NCBI RefSeq assembly: GCF_000971175.1
Contig: NZ_BBLY01000006.1
Coordinates: 1-64,000, forward strand
Length of the DNA stretch: 64,000 nt
DNA from: Demequina pelophila
Lineage (GTDB): Bacteria > Actinomycetota > Actinomycetes > Actinomycetales > Demequinaceae
Reading direction: 5' to 3'
Shown piece by piece: positions 31,127 to 37,656 of the stretch; within the stretch, counting starts at the first letter, position 1, and the number at the start of each line of letters is the position of its first letter. The translations under genes and the position numbers were made by a program. A model generated the notes under the pieces. That model was not told where the DNA came from. It saw nothing but the letters and a program-made list of their open reading frames with translations, and ran no database searches.

Positions 31127-31720
31127 CTAGCGACGGATGCGACGCATCGCGAGCTGCACCACGGAGATGAGCGCCTGCTTGGTGGCGGCCTTCTCGCGCG
31201 CGTCCGTGTACATGACCGGCACGTCGTCGGGGATGCCGAGCGCCTCGCGCACGTCCTCGAGCGTGTGGCGGGCGACGCCGTCGAAGCAGTTGACGCACAC
31301 CACGAAGGGGATGCCGCGGCCCTCGAAGTAGTCGACGGCCGGGAAGCACTGGTCCAGCCGCTCGGTGTCGACCAGCACGACCGCACCGATCGCGCCGCGC
31401 ACCAGGTCGTCCCACATGAACAGGAAGCGATCCTGGCCCGGGGTGCCGAACAGGTACAGCCACAGGGACCCGGGCAGCGCGATGCGCCCGAAGTCCATGG
31501 CGACCGTGGTGGTGGTCTTGCGGTCGGTGACGCCGCCCGCGTCGTCCACGCCCACGGAGTGCTCCGTCATGGCCGCCTCGGTGTTGAGGGGGTCGATGTC
31601 GGAGATCGAGCCGATGAAGGTGGTCTTGCCGACCGCGAAGCCGCCGGCGATGACGATCTTCACGACGGTGGGCGCGGCGACGGCGGGCGCCGCTGCGGGG
31701 CTAGAGGGCTGCAATGCCAT
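31127..31720 (-). CDS. Conservon GTP-binding protein (CvnD-like)
   Basis: A 197-residue small GTPase of the MglA/Rab-like bacterial group. G1 is GGFAVGKTT, the switch region has TTTTVAMDFG, G3-like FGTPGQDRF and the base-recognition motif is NCFD (instead of NKxD, usual for this family). An unstructured 30-residue N-terminus precedes it. It would act downstream of the kinase in the four-gene conservon. The ATG lies inside the end of the DUF742 gene (20-base overlap), so expression is coupled. Confidence 0.92.
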   Translation of the reverse strand: MALQPSSPAAAPAVAAPTVVKIVIAGGFAVGKTTFIGSISDIDPLNTEAAMTEHSVGVDDAGGVTDRKTTTTVAMDFGRIALPGSLWLYLFGTPGQDRFLFMWDDLVRGAIGAVVLVDTERLDQCFPAVDYFEGRGIPFVVCVNCFDGVARHTLEDVREALGIPDDVPVMYTDAREKAATKQALISVVQLAMRRIRR

Positions 31721-32096
31721 CGAGGACACTCTCCAGGAGACTGAGCGACAGGCCACCCGACGCATCGTGCGTGGACGCGTCCTGGGCGGTGCCGCCGGTA
31801 TGGATGTTCAAAAGGTGGGCCTGCGCAAGGTCCGTCACCAGCACCCGGACCACACCCAGCGGAAGGCGGGTGTGGGCCGACAGCTCGGCCACGGATTGGT
31901 ACTGTCCCGCGGCGAGCCGCAGGATCGTGATCTTCTCCGGGGTGAGCCCCGTGAAGTCCTGGTGGGTGGAGGCGGCCTCGACGAGCGCCTCCATGGGCAG
32001 GTCCGCGCTCGCCGCGCTCACACGCCCCCCGGTCACCGCGTAGGGCCGGACGGTGGAGGCCTCGTCCGGGTCGTACGCCGTCGTGTGGTCCCTCAT
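31701..32096 (-). CDS. DUF742 protein (CvnC-like)
   Basis: A 131-residue DUF742 protein: VRPYAVTGGRV near residue 17, TPEKITILRLAAGQYQSVAELSAHTRLPLGVVRVLVTDLAQAHLL, a winged-helix-like part. It ends in a Leu/Ser-rich helix. It is third in the operon, 8 bases after the roadblock gene, and overlaps the GTPase start. Confidence 0.93.
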   Translation of the reverse strand: MRDHTTAYDPDEASTVRPYAVTGGRVSAASADLPMEALVEAASTHQDFTGLTPEKITILRLAAGQYQSVAELSAHTRLPLGVVRVLVTDLAQAHLLNIHTGGTAQDASTHDASGGLSLSLLESVLDGIAAL

Positions 32097-32104
32097 GTCA
32101 TCCC

Positions 32105-32545
32105 TCAGAGGCGGGTGTGGCCGTTCGTGGGCAGATTCTGACGCATCTCGGTGATGAGCTGCGGCGTGAGGGCGTTCTCGAAGCGGGAGACCAGCAACGT
32201 CATCTCGTAGCCCACGAGGCCGACGTCGCAGGTCGAGTCCGCGGCGACCGCGAGCACGGAGCCGTTCGACACGCTCATGAGGAACAGGAACAGCTCGTCC
32301 ATCTCGACGATCGACTGGCGCACCTCGCCGGCGCCGAGCTGGCGCGCGGCGCCACGGGTGAGGCTCGACATGCCGGCCACGATCGCCGCGAGGGTGTCAC
32401 CCTCGGTGCGGTCGAGGTTGCGCGACATCGCCATGAGCAGGCCGTCCGCGCTCACCACCAGCGTGTGGCGCGTGCCGGGGACGGACTCGACGAAGTTGTC
32501 GAGAAGCCAGCCGAAGTTGGTGGCCTCGGTGCTGAGGGCGGTCAC
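32105..32545 (-). CDS. Roadblock/LC7 domain protein (CvnB-like)
   Basis: A 146-residue roadblock protein, the likely GTPase-activating or scaffold partner of the CvnD GTPase. Family parts are GWLLDNFVESVPGTRHTLVVSADGLLMAMS, AIVAGMSSLTRGAARQLG and the C-terminal VGYEMTLLVSRFE helix. It lies 60 bases after the kinase gene. Confidence 0.94.
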   Translation of the reverse strand: MTALSTEATNFGWLLDNFVESVPGTRHTLVVSADGLLMAMSRNLDRTEGDTLAAIVAGMSSLTRGAARQLGAGEVRQSIVEMDELFLFLMSVSNGSVLAVAADSTCDVGLVGYEMTLLVSRFENALTPQLITEMRQNLPTNGHTRL

Positions 32546-32605
32546 TGGTCCTCCTGGTGGTTGTGGGCGGCCCGGCGGACCGGGCCCTCGTCGTGGTTCA
32601 TGGGT

Positions 32606-35600
32606 CTAGTCGTTCCCGCCGTGGCCGTTCGAGCGGACCTCGAACTGCGCGGCGTCCGAGCGCGCACGCTGCGCGCCCGAGTAGAAGCTCGAGAAGCGCT
32701 GGCGGACCGCGTCCGCGTCACGCTCCTTGGGTGCGAGCGCCGCATCCTCCGCGAGCGGCTCGACGGGCGCGGGCGCCTCGGCGGGCTTGCGGCGCCGCTG
32801 CAGCCCCGCACGCGTCTTCTCGACCTTGGGTCGCGACGCCGACAGCGAGCTGAGCTCCGAGAACACGGCGCGGGTGAGGTCCGCCTCGTCGTCCTCGGGT
32901 GCCCGCCCGGAGGCGTTCTCCGTGTCGATCACCGGCGTGTACACCGTGCCGATGTCACCGAACGGCTGAGCAGCCAGCGCCGACTCGCCCGCGGACTCCC
33001 AGCCCTGCGGCTGGGCGAGTTCCTCGGGGGTGAACACGGCGGCCTCGGGGGACGATGCGGGGGCCGGCTCGTCCTGGACGGCAGGCTCGCGGTGGGCCGC
33101 ACGCGCGGCCACGGCGAACTCATCGACGACCGACTGGTCCGCTGCCCGGTCCGCGTGCCACTCGCCTGCGGATTCGGCGGCGGGCTGCCACGCGGACTCC
33201 TCCTGCGCGGCCCGCTCCCAGGGCGCGGGAGCACCGTCGCGGGCCTGAGCGCCGGCACGGTCAGCATCGTCCTGGACGGCATCGCCCGGGGCGGACGGAG
33301 TGTCGGGACTCCAGGCGGCCTCGGGTGCGAAGGCCTGCTCCCGCTCGAAGGTCAACTCCGGTTCGAAGGTCGGCGCGACCGCGGGCCCGCTCAGCGGCTC
33401 GGGGAGCGGCTCCGCCTGCGGCTCGGGCTCGAATCCGATGGCCTCGGGTTCGAATCCACGCGGCTCCTGGATCTCCTGGCCGAGCGCGTGCGGTCGGGCG
33501 GGCACCACCGGCGTGGGCTCGAACGCGCCCTGGGACGGGGGCTCGTACGGCTCGGTCCGGCGCTGCGCCTCCTCGACGGCGGGGGCCTCGGTCCGGCGGC
33601 GCCGTCCGAACAGGCGTCCGAAGAAGCCGGAGCGCGCCGCATGCACGCCCGACTCCTGAGCGAGGATGGTGTCGATCGACTCGTCGGTGGCGCCGTTCCA
33701 CCGGTCTGCGGGGGCCGCGTCGTCCGCGCGCAGCCACACGGGCACGGCGGACGGCTCCGGCGCCTCGTCGAGGGCGGCGGGCTCGGCGACGGGCTCCGGC
33801 TCCGGCGCGACCTCCGATGCGACGGTGGACTCGGGCTCGATGGTCGGCTCCGGCTCGATGGTCGGCTCAGGCTCGACAGCAGCCTCGGGCTCAGGCTCGA
33901 CGGCACGCTCCGCCGGGATCTCGACCTCCGGCACGTCCGGCTCGTCCTCCAGCGCCGGGATCACGACGGGCTCGTCCTCGGCGTCCGCGATCGGGCCGCG
34001 CGTGCCGCCGTCCCCCATCTCGCGGGTGAACGCGGCGCCGTACGGCGACCGCTCGAAGGGGCTCTCGGCGGCCGGGCGCGGGGCCAGCTTGGGCATGGAG
34101 AACACCGGCAGGCGCGGTGCGGGCTCGGGCGCGACCTCCGGCTCGACCAAGGTCTCGTCGGGTTCCGCGGCCTCGAGCGCACCGTCGATCGCGGACTCCG
34201 GCTCCTCGGCGTCCGGCTCGAGCGAGGGCGCGAAGCCCGTCGCGCTCGGCTCCGCACCGAGGGCGCTCGCCCCGGACTCGTCGGTGCCGGACTCGTCGGT
34301 GCCGGACTCGTCGACGTCGTCGCGGCGCTGGAGCGCGCGACGACCGGCGTCGATCGCCGCGAACGCGGCGAATGCCCCGCCCAGCGCGTGCGCCCGATCG
34401 CCGCTCGACGCGCGGTCGCCGGAAGCGACGGCGGCGGCGGACTCGTCGTCGCCGGGCGCCTCGTCGTCAGGAGCGAACCCCGGCACCGCCGGGGCGGAAC
34501 CGTCGTCGGTCGACCCCGCGCCGTCACCGCCGCCGAGCACCGAGCGGCGGCGCACCGGAAGGCCGGACGCACTGACCGACCGCGTCGGCTCGGCGCGCTC
34601 GCCGTCGGCGGAAGCGTCGTCCGCGGCTGCCGACCCCTGGGCGACACCCGTCGGGGCCCACGGCACGTCGAGCCCACCGTCGAAGTCGGGCTCGAGACCC
34701 GGGATCTCGACCCGGTCTGCGGTCGCGACCGCGTCCACCGCCGGCGCCTCGCGGCGCGAGCGGAAGCCGCGGAACATCGAGGCGCGGTCCGTGGACGCCT
34801 GCGCCTCGGGCGTCGGCTCGGGCGCGGGAACCGCGGGCGTGAATGCGGCGGCCTCGGCGTCGAGCGCGCTGAGCTGGTCGTCCGTCGCCTGCGCCGGGAG
34901 GCCGATCACGGCCTCGCCCCGGTCGGCGGCGGGGGCGTCGCGCCTGGTGCGGCGCGTCGGCAGGCCGGAGGCCGCGACGCCGGCCGTGAGGTCGGCCGTG
35001 ACGACGGGCTTGGCCACCGGCGCCTGCGCCGCATCCGCCTCGATGAGGGCGTCCAGCTCCGTGGCGACCGGCTCCGCCTCGGTGGCGTCGGCCTCGCCCT
35101 CGACCGGCGCGAGCACGGGGACCTCCGCAGGCAGAGGGGCGACGGCGGAGGGCACCGCGGGCGCCGTGGCGTCGAACAGCGCGATCGGGAGGAGCACGGT
35201 CGCGACCGTGCCCTCGCCCGCGGTCGACCTCAGCGTCACCGTGGCGCCCAGGCGGCGGGCGATGCGGCCCACCACGAACAGCCCCAGGCGCTGCGCGCCC
35301 AGGATCTCGGACGCGGCGGTCGTCGCGACGTGCGCGTTCGCGTCGGCCAGCTCGGAGTCGGTCATGCCGATGCCGGAGTCGATCACCTCGACGGTGAAGC
35401 CGTCCTCCACCTGACCCGTCCGCACCACGACGCGGGACATGGGGTCGGAGAAGACGGTCGCGTTCTCCAGCAGCTCCGCGAACAGGTGCGCGGCGGCCAG
35501 GGCCTGGTGCCCCACCATGGGCGGGTCGACCACGAGGTCGAGGTCGACGCGCTCGTACAGCTCGATCTCGGACGACGCGGTGCGCACCACGTCCGACAGC

Positions 35601-37480
35601 GGCATGGGCCGGCGGAGGCGGCGGCCCGTGTCGATGCCGGCGAGCACCAGCAGCGACTCCGAGTTGCGGCGCATCCGGGTCGCCAGGTGGTCGAGCGCGA
35701 ACAGCCGCGTGAGGCGGTTCGGGTCGTCCTCGGTGCGCTCCATCTCGTCGATGCTGGAGAGCTGGCGGTTGAGCAGCACCTGGTCGCGGCGCGCCACGTT
35801 GACGAACATCTCCGAGATGGACGCGCGCAGCGCGGCCTGCTCGCGCGCGATCTCGAGGGTGGCGGCGTTGACGCCGTTGAACGCCTCCGCGAGGCGGCCC
35901 ACCTCGTCCGAGCTCTCGACGGGGATCTGCACGTCCGACACGTCGACGTCCTCGCCGGGGAGGGCGACCCGCTCCACCATGGACGGGAGCTCCTCGCGGA
36001 CGGCGGCGGCGGTCGTCGTCAGGCGTCGCAGCGGCACCACGATGCGGCGCGCGATGGCGAACGCGAGGACGAGCGACGCGATGAGACCGCCGGTCAGCAC
36101 CGCGAGGGTCAGCAGCGTCGTGGTGCGGGCCTCGGCGACGTCGCCGGCCGCGCTGGACTCCGCCTGCTGCCACAGCTGGGCGCGCAGCGGCTCGTACTGC
36201 TGCAGCTCCTCGCCCACCGCCTGGTCCCAGCCCAGGTCGCGCACGAGCACGATCGAGTCCGTGGTGCCGCCCAGCAGCTGCGCACGGATGCCCTCGAACG
36301 AGGCCATGGGCTGGTCGGGGTCGAGCGAGGCGCCGAAGCCGGGCACCTCGATGGGGTCCGGCAGCGAGGCGCCGGCGCGCTGCGCGTCCACGAGCGCCAG
36401 ACGCGTGCGCTCGACGGCGGCGGGCACCGACGTCTCGCCGGAACCCATGAACAGGCCCGCGCGCAGGATGCGGTCGACGATCACCCGCTCGTAGGAGATC
36501 GACTCGATGAGCCGGTCGACGCTCGCGTAGGCGGCCAGCTGGGTGCCCACCTCGCGGCCCGGCATGGCGACCGTGACGGTGGTGACCGCGCGCTGGAAGG
36601 CGCCCAGCAGCTCCGTGTAGAAGTTGGTCAGCACGACCGGGGAGATCTGCGCGGACGCCACACCCAGGCGGATCTGCTCGAACTCGCTACGCAGCTCGCG
36701 GCCGGCGGACACGGCGTCGAGCGCCTCGGCGTTGCGGTCGTTGCGCTCGATCTGCGCGGTGGTGTCGTGGATCCGGTCGAGCCCCTCCTCGACGGCGACG
36801 AAGGTGCGCTCCATGGTCTGCTGGTGGGTGCGCGTCTGGCCGAACAGCTGGTCCGCCAGGCCCGCCTCGTACTCCACCGCGGCGATGAGCGCGTCGAACT
36901 CGAGCGTGATGGTCGTCGCGCCCGTCTGCGCGTCGCGCAGGCCGGCGACGATCTCCGCATAGCCGGCGGCCTGGGCCTCGACGTCCTCGACGGAGGGGAG
37001 CCCGAACCACTCGCCGGCCTCGGTGGGCGGGGTGATGGTGAGGCCGCGCAGGTCCGCCAGTCGCGCCCCGGCACCGGTCGCGAGGAGCTCAGATGCCCGG
37101 TTCACGGACTCGCGGGCGATGCGAGCGGACTCGCGCAGCTGCGAGCCGGCACCCTCCTGGTTCGCGCGGGACTCGATCTCGCGCACCGTCGCGTCGAGGA
37201 CCGCGAGCGCGTCGGCGACGCCCTCGTACGCGCCCGGCAGCTGGCCGGGGACGCGGGTGACGATGTCGACGTAGTTGACGGCGGCGAAGCGCTCCGCCTG
37301 GAGGTCGTCCTGCGTCACGACGGACTCGGCGACGGCGTCCATGAGCTGCTTCGCCTCGTTCGCGTCCTGATAGTCGCGCGCCGAGCCGAGCACCACGAAC
37401 CCGGAGAGCATGAGCAGCACGAGCGCGGGAACCGCGACGACGGCGAGGAGCTTTCCTCGGATACCGAGCCTCTGAAGCAT
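32606..37480 (-). CDS. Giant nitrate/nitrite-sensor-type histidine kinase (CvnA-like)
   Basis: A sensor kinase of about 1,624 residues. TM1 lies near residues 12-32, a helical extracellular NIT-type sensor follows to ~440, TM2 at ~450-472 (LLTLAVLTGGLIASLVLAFAIAR), HAMP-like linker, a DHp-like helix (NVARRDQVLLNRQLSSIDEMERTEDDPNRLTRLFALDHLATRMRRNSESLL) and a HATPase domain near 640-765 (HLFAELLENATVFS, VIDSGIGM). The remaining ~855 residues are low-complexity, rich in Glu/Pro/Ala, with PEPTIEPEP and DESGT repeats and two ASGLP(T/V)RR motifs. The C-terminal RQRFSSFYSGAQRAR resembles the conserved end of related actinobacterial kinases. ATG 37480 follows GGAAGG. Confidence 0.9.
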   Translation of the reverse strand: MLQRLGIRGKLLAVVAVPALVLLMLSGFVVLGSARDYQDANEAKQLMDAVAESVVTQDDLQAERFAAVNYVDIVTRVPGQLPGAYEGVADALAVLDATVREIESRANQEGAGSQLRESARIARESVNRASELLATGAGARLADLRGLTITPPTEAGEWFGLPSVEDVEAQAAGYAEIVAGLRDAQTGATTITLEFDALIAAVEYEAGLADQLFGQTRTHQQTMERTFVAVEEGLDRIHDTTAQIERNDRNAEALDAVSAGRELRSEFEQIRLGVASAQISPVVLTNFYTELLGAFQRAVTTVTVAMPGREVGTQLAAYASVDRLIESISYERVIVDRILRAGLFMGSGETSVPAAVERTRLALVDAQRAGASLPDPIEVPGFGASLDPDQPMASFEGIRAQLLGGTTDSIVLVRDLGWDQAVGEELQQYEPLRAQLWQQAESSAAGDVAEARTTTLLTLAVLTGGLIASLVLAFAIARRIVVPLRRLTTTAAAVREELPSMVERVALPGEDVDVSDVQIPVESSDEVGRLAEAFNGVNAATLEIAREQAALRASISEMFVNVARRDQVLLNRQLSSIDEMERTEDDPNRLTRLFALDHLATRMRRNSESLLVLAGIDTGRRLRRPMPLSDVVRTASSEIELYERVDLDLVVDPPMVGHQALAAAHLFAELLENATVFSDPMSRVVVRTGQVEDGFTVEVIDSGIGMTDSELADANAHVATTAASEILGAQRLGLFVVGRIARRLGATVTLRSTAGEGTVATVLLPIALFDATAPAVPSAVAPLPAEVPVLAPVEGEADATEAEPVATELDALIEADAAQAPVAKPVVTADLTAGVAASGLPTRRTRRDAPAADRGEAVIGLPAQATDDQLSALDAEAAAFTPAVPAPEPTPEAQASTDRASMFRGFRSRREAPAVDAVATADRVEIPGLEPDFDGGLDVPWAPTGVAQGSAAADDASADGERAEPTRSVSASGLPVRRRSVLGGGDGAGSTDDGSAPAVPGFAPDDEAPGDDESAAAVASGDRASSGDRAHALGGAFAAFAAIDAGRRALQRRDDVDESGTDESGTDESGASALGAEPSATGFAPSLEPDAEEPESAIDGALEAAEPDETLVEPEVAPEPAPRLPVFSMPKLAPRPAAESPFERSPYGAAFTREMGDGGTRGPIADAEDEPVVIPALEDEPDVPEVEIPAERAVEPEPEAAVEPEPTIEPEPTIEPESTVASEVAPEPEPVAEPAALDEAPEPSAVPVWLRADDAAPADRWNGATDESIDTILAQESGVHAARSGFFGRLFGRRRRTEAPAVEEAQRRTEPYEPPSQGAFEPTPVVPARPHALGQEIQEPRGFEPEAIGFEPEPQAEPLPEPLSGPAVAPTFEPELTFEREQAFAPEAAWSPDTPSAPGDAVQDDADRAGAQARDGAPAPWERAAQEESAWQPAAESAGEWHADRAADQSVVDEFAVAARAAHREPAVQDEPAPASSPEAAVFTPEELAQPQGWESAGESALAAQPFGDIGTVYTPVIDTENASGRAPEDDEADLTRAVFSELSSLSASRPKVEKTRAGLQRRRKPAEAPAPVEPLAEDAALAPKERDADAVRQRFSSFYSGAQRARSDAAQFEVRSNGHGGND

Positions 37481-37656
37481 GACACCTTCCCTCACGAGCC
37501 GCCGCCTGCTCAGACGCCTCTTCGATGACGAAGGCGACGACCGCTCCCCAGCGTTATCGGCCGGGTCGCAGGAAACATGAAGGTCGCGGCACCGCGCCCT
37601 CAGCACTGGGACACTACGAATACCGGAGCCGGGCGACGCGGAGGTAGGCAAACGGA

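Follow-up and report, generated by a model that had tools for sequence, protein, structure and literature searches.

The CvnA-type sensor kinase encoded by positions 32606..37480 on the minus strand of a 64,000-nucleotide stretch of Demequina pelophila DNA (the window; positions 1 to 64,000 of contig NZ_BBLY01000006.1) carries a long C-terminal tail that, on sequence comparison, consists of two conserved stations, one near the kinase and one at the C-terminus, and of a single island in the middle, all linked by elastic spacers. The protein, of 1,624 amino acids (aa) plus stop, was recognised from its open frame and its HAMP and HATPase_c domains (Pfam). The last island, I9 (aa 1586-1609, 32654..32725; the terminal motif RDADAVRQRFSSFYSGAQRAR lies at aa 1587-1607), is most likely a docking helix for CvnB, the roadblock protein of MglB type encoded by the next gene, a partnership that we infer from the sequences. 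The reading that we tentatively adopt, with confidence slightly short of even, is one in which I9 docks CvnB and the tail is a tether bearing a conserved station at either end. All features described below lie on the minus strand, unless otherwise indicated.

An alignment of 18 Demequina kinases displayed short conserved islands amid poorly conserved chain. Models of the islands were defined on these 18 sequences, and an island was considered detected in a tail if it scored above each of 1,000 shuffles. Among 10 held-out Demequina tails, islands I2-I4 and I6-I9 were detected in all 10 and I1 in nine; I5 (aa 1122-1133) was found in only four and was dropped as an island. The proximal module (I1-I4, aa 808-910, 34751..35059) includes the sequences LDALIEADAA, GLPTRRTRR (containing the LPxR motif), VIGLPAQATDDQLSALDAEA and DRASMFRGFRSRR, and is followed by a first variable spacer (aa 911-1265, 33686..34750) with DESGT and EPEPTI repeats and the weak I5. 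Island I6 (aa 1266-1294, 33599..33685) ends in GFFGRLFGRR and is separated by a second variable spacer (aa 1295-1481, 33038..33598) from the C-terminal module, which consists of I7 (aa 1482-1518, 32927..33037), with GWESAGESALAA, I8 (aa 1533-1564, 32789..32884), with VFSELSSLSA, and I9.

The order of the detected islands was identical in 28 of 28 intact Demequina tails. Spacing within the modules was nearly constant, at 12-16 aa (I1-I2), 8-19 aa (I2-I3) and 8-15 aa (I3-I4) in the proximal module and 7-15 aa (I7-I8) and 21-23 aa (I8-I9) in the C-terminal one, whereas that between modules in the same 28 tails varied from 178 to 415 aa (I4-I6) and from 82 to 206 aa (I6-I7); it is this difference that suggests an architecture of stations joined by elastic spacers. 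AlphaFold2, applied to aa 460-1624, left the tail unstructured, with predicted local distance difference test (pLDDT) values mostly of 30-50, apart from short helices at six islands (I1, I3, I6, I7, I8 and I9). The helix predicted at I7 (approximately aa 1485-1503) had a pLDDT of about 75, and that at I9 (aa 1589-1617) one of 61-65.

The tail, taken as everything between the last ATPase strand and the stop, comprises 859 aa (aa 766-1624, 32609..35185), or 53% of the kinase chain, and is predicted to be disordered. It is rich in alanine, proline and glutamate (E 11.8%, P 12.1% and A 20.4%; sum 44.2%, versus 25.8% in aa 1-765), has a net charge of -103 and zero cysteines, and contained no Pfam domain at an expectation value (E) of up to 0.01, the threshold used in the Pfam scan. 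Short in-frame DNA repeats (a 15-nucleotide unit repeated 2.8 times at 34272-34313 and an 18-nucleotide unit repeated 2.6 times at 33830-33876) sit in stretches weakly conserved among the 18 relatives, and this location in poorly conserved spacer ruled them out as a functional element. A preliminary description of the gene had reported an 855-residue tail making up more than half of the chain, rich in Glu, Pro and Ala and with repeats, in an intact frame and with its C-terminal motif kept. The measurements agree with it on each point: the difference in length is within the choice of boundary, the frame (37480-32606) translates into 1,624 codons with zero internal stops, and all 28 intact Demequina tails are matched by the I9 model. 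Its remark that conservon kinases are usually about half this length holds roughly for other orders, in which stop-to-stop kinase frames spanned 806-1344 aa (n=20 sampled), but not for the kinase's own genus, in which they mostly measure about 1,390-1,705 aa.

Tails in Demequina were 634-950 aa long (median 816; 28 intact of 31 distinct loci fetched in full), after the exclusion of eight duplicate loci and of the frame-broken L035, L129 and L140 (our locus labels). Those of the Micrococcales orthologue clade, defined by a kinase identity of at least 57%, measured 365-1043 aa (median 595; 35 complete of 37), those of more distant Micrococcales kinases 189-850 aa (median 333; n=20) and those of kinases from other orders 70-568 aa (median 226.5; n=20), with L114, L116 and L118, cut at contig ends, removed from the counts. 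Tails at least as long as that of the window numbered four among the 77 sampled outside Demequina. A long tail is the rule within Demequina, and is long relative to other orders; the notion that length is a peculiarity of this single protein was ruled out, long tails being genus-wide. The preliminary description had named equally long tails in all relatives, combined with a failure to bind partners, as what would speak against a long-range tether, and the first half of this was found within the genus, all 28 intact tails being at least 634 aa long.

The length of the tail might alternatively be a matter of drift, with islands that matter and spacers that are a low-cost by-product, an explanation that we consider unlikely, though deserving of weight, and that is compatible with the tether reading. 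Spacers differ more than twofold in length, the repeats lie in poorly conserved stretches, and the tails of conservons elsewhere are 150-300 aa long. Nevertheless, none of the 28 intact Demequina tails is shorter than 634 aa and no I4-I6 spacer shorter than 178 aa, and the ratio of nonsynonymous to synonymous substitution rates (dN/dS) in seven orthologue pairs was 0.18-0.53 for the spacers, with values of 0.03-0.16 for the kinase, 0.01-0.37 for the islands and 0.06-0.59 for the sensor part. The island values are biased, because the islands were selected for their conservation. The spacer is constrained to some degree, and its rate of evolution is similar to that of the sensor part.

It is extremely improbable that the tail results from a sequencing error or a wrong frame: four related tails (L035, L129, L140 and L120) are interrupted, but the frame in the window is open, and 28 Demequina tails share both the order of their islands and a range of lengths. 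A frame change or stop breaks each of the four interrupted tails; the later islands continue downstream, in another frame for L035, L129 and L140, for which recoding and assembly error or gene decay are equally likely explanations.

Island I9 is, by its sequence, widespread in several actinobacterial orders. Its consensus, from counts in 115 tails, is roughly R-D-[AP]-[ED]-x-V-R-x-[RM]-[LF]-S-x-[FY]-x-x-G-[TV]-x-R-[GA]-R. A model built on Demequina only matched 43 of the 77 other tails at the 1% shuffle level, with 22 exceeding all 3,850 shuffles. The iterated model matched 72 of these 77 tails, every one above the best shuffle, with scores that are inflated because iteration trains on its own hits; the five misses were L120, L151, L155, L156 and L161, two of which (L156 and L161) resemble I9 by eye. 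When training used Demequina plus the orthologue clade (with a small leak, since the windows for training had been placed by a model already exposed to the test tails), the resulting model matched, at the 1% level, 15 of 20 tails from distant Micrococcales, 16 of 20 from other orders and one of two from the family; 11, 10 and one of them, respectively, scored above all 8,400 shuffles. Position was unknown to this model, and 29 of its 32 matches ended at most 35 aa from the C-terminus. I9 was present in L154 and L158, both probably mycobacterial. L158 also has a pentapeptide-repeat-like stretch, and in L175 the best match lies 195 aa before the C-terminus, with a chain end that resembles a second copy by eye.

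The remaining islands had a more restricted distribution. The Demequina models of I1, I3, I4, I6 and I7 each matched only 2 to 4 of the 77 tails outside the genus. I8 was found upstream of I9 in 16 of the 35 orthologue-clade tails, in 14 of these 16 at a distance of 50-61 aa, the distance on the same measure in Demequina being 53-55 aa. Basic-aromatic stretches like I4 and I6 occurred at 18 sites in this clade, 13 of them no more than 200 aa into the tail, a portion that represents 33% of its length. The kinase extension of the window contains LPxR twice (GLPTR at aa 839 and GLPVR at aa 973), and the pattern GL[PTAQ]xR was present in 25 of the 35 orthologue-clade tails, for which shuffling predicts 2.2; among 20 tails each from distant Micrococcales and from other orders, it occurred in 9 and 10, respectively.

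The LPxR motif of the CvnA extension has been published by Wuichet and Sogaard-Andersen in 2014 (PMC4316618), who describe, in actinobacterial G protein systems, a CvnA with a C-terminal extension bearing LPxR, as here. Unstructured terminal regions, similar to the present tail, have been noted in CvnA8 (PMC13343842). A 2026 preprint describes the longer C-terminus of actinobacterial MfpE as lacking notable sequence conservation (PMC13015309), a view that, as printed there, I9 qualifies. The CvnA of the window differs from the known ones in its 859-aa tail with a proximal and a distal station, and neither the terminal I9 motif nor a two-station spacing rule was found described in the open-licence literature searched. 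The gene itself is a member of a known system; what was not met in those publications is the broad occurrence of the terminal motif, its pairing with I8 at a fixed distance and its inclination to accompany CvnB.

I9 tends to go with a neighbouring CvnB gene. Overall, it was found in 106 of 119 kinases with an adjacent CvnB and in 9 of 24 without one (143 kinases with complete 3' ends), and, after clustering at 70% kinase identity, in 32 of 39 versus 8 of 17 clusters (p 0.012), a p value that is not acceptable at face value because the pooled association mixes two samples. The first sample was made up of one or a few best matches per sampled genome and is no census; the second, scored with the I9 model already built, consisted of 25 regions with 26 kinase hits seemingly without CvnB, together with 15 CvnB-bearing kinases that were odd and, in many cases, short on purpose. 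CvnB-less status in the second sample was set by hit-list comparison, and L197 turned out to have CvnB. L182, L187 and L188 (cut at contig ends) were dropped from the association, as was L120, which was counted for tail length and the spread of I9; loci that trained the I9 model are included in the pooled counts. A third and cleaner set, of plasmid records (n=20; best place per record, 20 of 31 places), had I9 in 18 of 18 kinases with CvnB and in neither of the two without. None of the plasmid tails was identical to a training tail; the 20 include near copies, and 18 are distinct.

A number of observations weigh against a CvnB-specific role of I9. The first sample, which trained the I9 model, had the island in 99 of 102 kinases with CvnB and in one of two without, whereas the second, picked sample displayed no association (7 of 17 with CvnB versus 8 of 22 without), and the pooled association proved, on checking, to stem from the first sample and the plasmid set, with none in the picked set; our confidence in the CvnB reading and in the two-station scheme was lowered somewhat for this. 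Two of the 18 plasmid matches (7.2 and 7.4) passed the 1% level but fell below the best of 2,000 shuffles (7.7). The nine of 24 CvnB-less kinases with I9 include L185, L189, L199, L200, L203 and L177, which have no adjoining conservon gene at all, and among the 13 kinases that have CvnB but score below threshold, eight are short CvnAs with frames of 519-590 aa; with exceptions in both directions, an obligatory pairing of I9 and CvnB was ruled out. LPxR is likewise associated with CvnB (106 of 119 versus 11 of 24). Distance-matrix coevolution initially favoured CvnB (0.25, versus 0.10 for CvnD and -0.20 for CvnC), but, in a control, six of 32 kinase-domain windows also reached 0.25 with CvnB, which took away the weight of this test as proof of the partner. 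Finally, the amphipathicity of I9 is modest (median percentile 0.73 among its own shuffles) and the pLDDT of its helix model is just 61-65.

Some of these data would fit another partner of I9, which might be CvnD or CvnC, or else the product of a gene outside the locus (a polarity scaffold or an effector, for example). Nine of the 24 kinases away from CvnB keep I9, the island is equally common with and without CvnB in the picked set, and the C-terminal helix of MglB, which binds MglA, provides a precedent for a GTPase-binding helix (PMC11016934). This alternative nonetheless seems unlikely to us, as I9 and CvnB persist together without CvnC (L230 and L240), with CvnD undetected (L232, in which CvnB and CvnC are present) and with both missing (L227, with CvnB alone). 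These four loci, which keep I9 and CvnB with an incomplete CvnC/CvnD set, are the reason why co-occurrence appears to point to CvnB more than to the GTPase as the partner. L230 (R. opacus pR1CP1) and L240 (an R. koreensis plasmid) each have the kinase, roadblock protein and GTPase, the DUF742 protein not being found, and in L227 (a plasmid of Kitasatospora sp. NBC_00039) the kinase and roadblock genes alone lie directly ahead of branched-chain amino acid transporter genes.

A rather improbable alternative is a role in cis, in which I9 and the basic-aromatic islands regulate the kinase itself by folding back on its core or by binding the membrane, CvnB not being their partner. It would account for the presence of I9 in 6 of 13 kinases without an adjoining CvnB, CvnC or CvnD, and I4 and I6 (MFRGFRSRR and GFFGRLFGRRR) are basic-aromatic stretches that, by eye, resemble membrane- or nucleic acid-binding ones. 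However, the tails of the two CvnB-less kinases from Rhodococcus plasmids measure just 26 and 38 aa, and I9 is lacking in 8 of 11 kinases whose sole neighbour is CvnC; the existence of these short-tailed and I9-less kinases indicates that the kinase core persists without the tail.

Several CvnA-like genes are set in unusual surroundings. L229 and L239 (plasmids pA and pB of Rhodococcus pyridinivorans), the two plasmid kinases without CvnB, have no conservon neighbours, and their chains end 26 and 38 aa past the ATPase domain. L177, L199, L200 and L203 have tails of 489-1001 aa with I9, and no CvnB, CvnC or CvnD nearby; in the three examined (L177, L199 and L203), the next open frame, of about 168 aa, includes a hydrophobic stretch, and a lipoprotein-like frame lies further on in L177 and L203. 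CvnC directly follows CvnA in L181, L183, L186, L191, L201, L202 and L204, which have tails of 48-86 aa and no I9, and roadblock and GTPase genes were not found in the stretch available for each; CvnB loss is not proven for L181, because its contig ends 337 bases past the kinase.

If I9 does hold CvnB, the flexible acidic tail would serve as a tether between the station near the kinase and that at the C-terminus. The former (I1-I4, with the published LPxR motif and the MFRGFRSRR island) may constitute a second contact, and long spacers of free length, with the basic-aromatic I6 between them, would lead to the near-fixed I7-I8-I9 station, the last helix of which, I9, would dock CvnB. CvnB, thought to regulate the GTPase CvnD, would be leashed by the kinase, with the switch machinery, at the membrane; sensing of a signal by the kinase could change the access or state of CvnB, and the long acidic spacer would give the docked protein reach. 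We infer both the role of tether length and the route of signal passing. It is doubtful whether the full scheme applies, in which signalling depends on the two-station tether and not on phosphotransfer, the proximal LPxR/basic station handling CvnD or the membrane and the C-terminal helix holding CvnB, such that kinase conformation meters the access of CvnB to the GTPase and tether length sets reach and gain, with Demequina at the long end. The preliminary description had suggested that the tail might tether the roadblock and GTPase partners over a long range. Modules of fixed spacing across variable spacers, and a motif that tends to occur with the roadblock gene, are in keeping with this; less so are the unexceptional nature of the protein and the preference for CvnB over the GTPase. 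For the signal route from CvnA to the GTPase, a short C-terminal peptide recurring in several actinobacterial orders makes the CvnB link testable.

A link of this kind has been considered before: an interaction of CvnA9 with both CvnB9 and CvnC9 has been reported (Komatsu 2006, cited in PMC8510531), and a 2026 paper hypothesises that CvnB8 connects kinase and GTPase (PMC13343842). The closest case worked out so far is that of Myxococcus xanthus RomR, which has a receiver domain, a disordered Pro-rich linker and a C-terminal helix that alone binds MglC with a dissociation constant (KD) of 2.6 nM (PMC12719032). By analogy with RomR and its partners MglC, MglB and MglA, CvnA would work alike, through a disordered linker and a C-terminal roadblock-binding helix, although RomR is a receiver-domain protein rather than a membrane kinase, and its helix relies on Trp and binds MglC, not MglB. 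The same logic is proposed for CvnA, with a helix that is predicted and a partner suggested by gene co-occurrence; no receiver domain was found in the Pfam scan of the kinase. The tail of FtsZ, an unrelated protein, bears a likeness of architecture to that of CvnA, and that of WalK is presumably much shorter than the one in the window. The C-terminal tail of FtsZ is disordered with a function of its own (PMC12747378), and WalK of Streptococcus mutans is a histidine kinase in which a disordered C-terminal W-acidic tail holds a partner motif; it differs in having a response regulator as partner and no GTPase module (PMC9087282).

The kinase core is ordinary, with a HAMP domain (aa 476-535, 35876..36055; PF00672, E 4.7e-08), an invariant LDHLATRMRRN stretch and an ATPase domain (HATPase_c, aa 662-766, 35183..35497; PF02518, E 3.3e-13). 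H598, within the LDHLATRMRRN stretch, is invariant across the 18 sequences and is a candidate autophosphorylation site. A model of aa 1-790 (mean pLDDT 77.6) had a nearly all-helical N-terminal sensor part, which, together with HAMP and HATPase_c, suggests a membrane kinase-like protein. Foldseek, among the 50 matches listed, returned mostly histidine kinase cores, and was rejected as a guide to the sensor fold, since the listed matches, to judge by their lengths, cover the kinase core. A NIT sensory domain was not matched in the kinase by Pfam at E 0.01; such a domain is present in the majority of CvnA proteins (PMC13343842).

The locus is a conservon (cvn, or actinobacterial G protein system) with all four genes present on one strand in the order A-B-C-D (37480-32606, 32545-32105, 32096-31701 and 31765-31127); the order of kinase, roadblock, DUF742 and GTPase genes is that of known conservons, in which the kinase is CvnA (MfpE in mycobacteria). 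CvnB, the proposed partner of I9, is a roadblock/LC7 protein of 146 aa (32105..32545; PF03259, E 8.2e-23), CvnC a DUF742 protein of 131 aa (31701..32096; PF05331, E 6.5e-27) and CvnD a small Ras-like GTPase of 212 aa as read (31127..31765; PF03029, E 2.5e-27), for which an alternative start is possible at 31720. In searches of the whole genome, the kinase gave one further match only, and a weak one (E 9e-7), and CvnB had no second copy at E 1e-6; the gene seems to be the CvnA of the apparently sole conservon in this genome. A kinase match was obtained in 43 of the 44 genomes of the Demequina genus sample, source genome included. On the plus strand, an open frame of 1,803 codons (32117-37528) runs antisense to the entire kinase gene and is most likely a by-product of high GC (guanine plus cytosine) content and codon usage.

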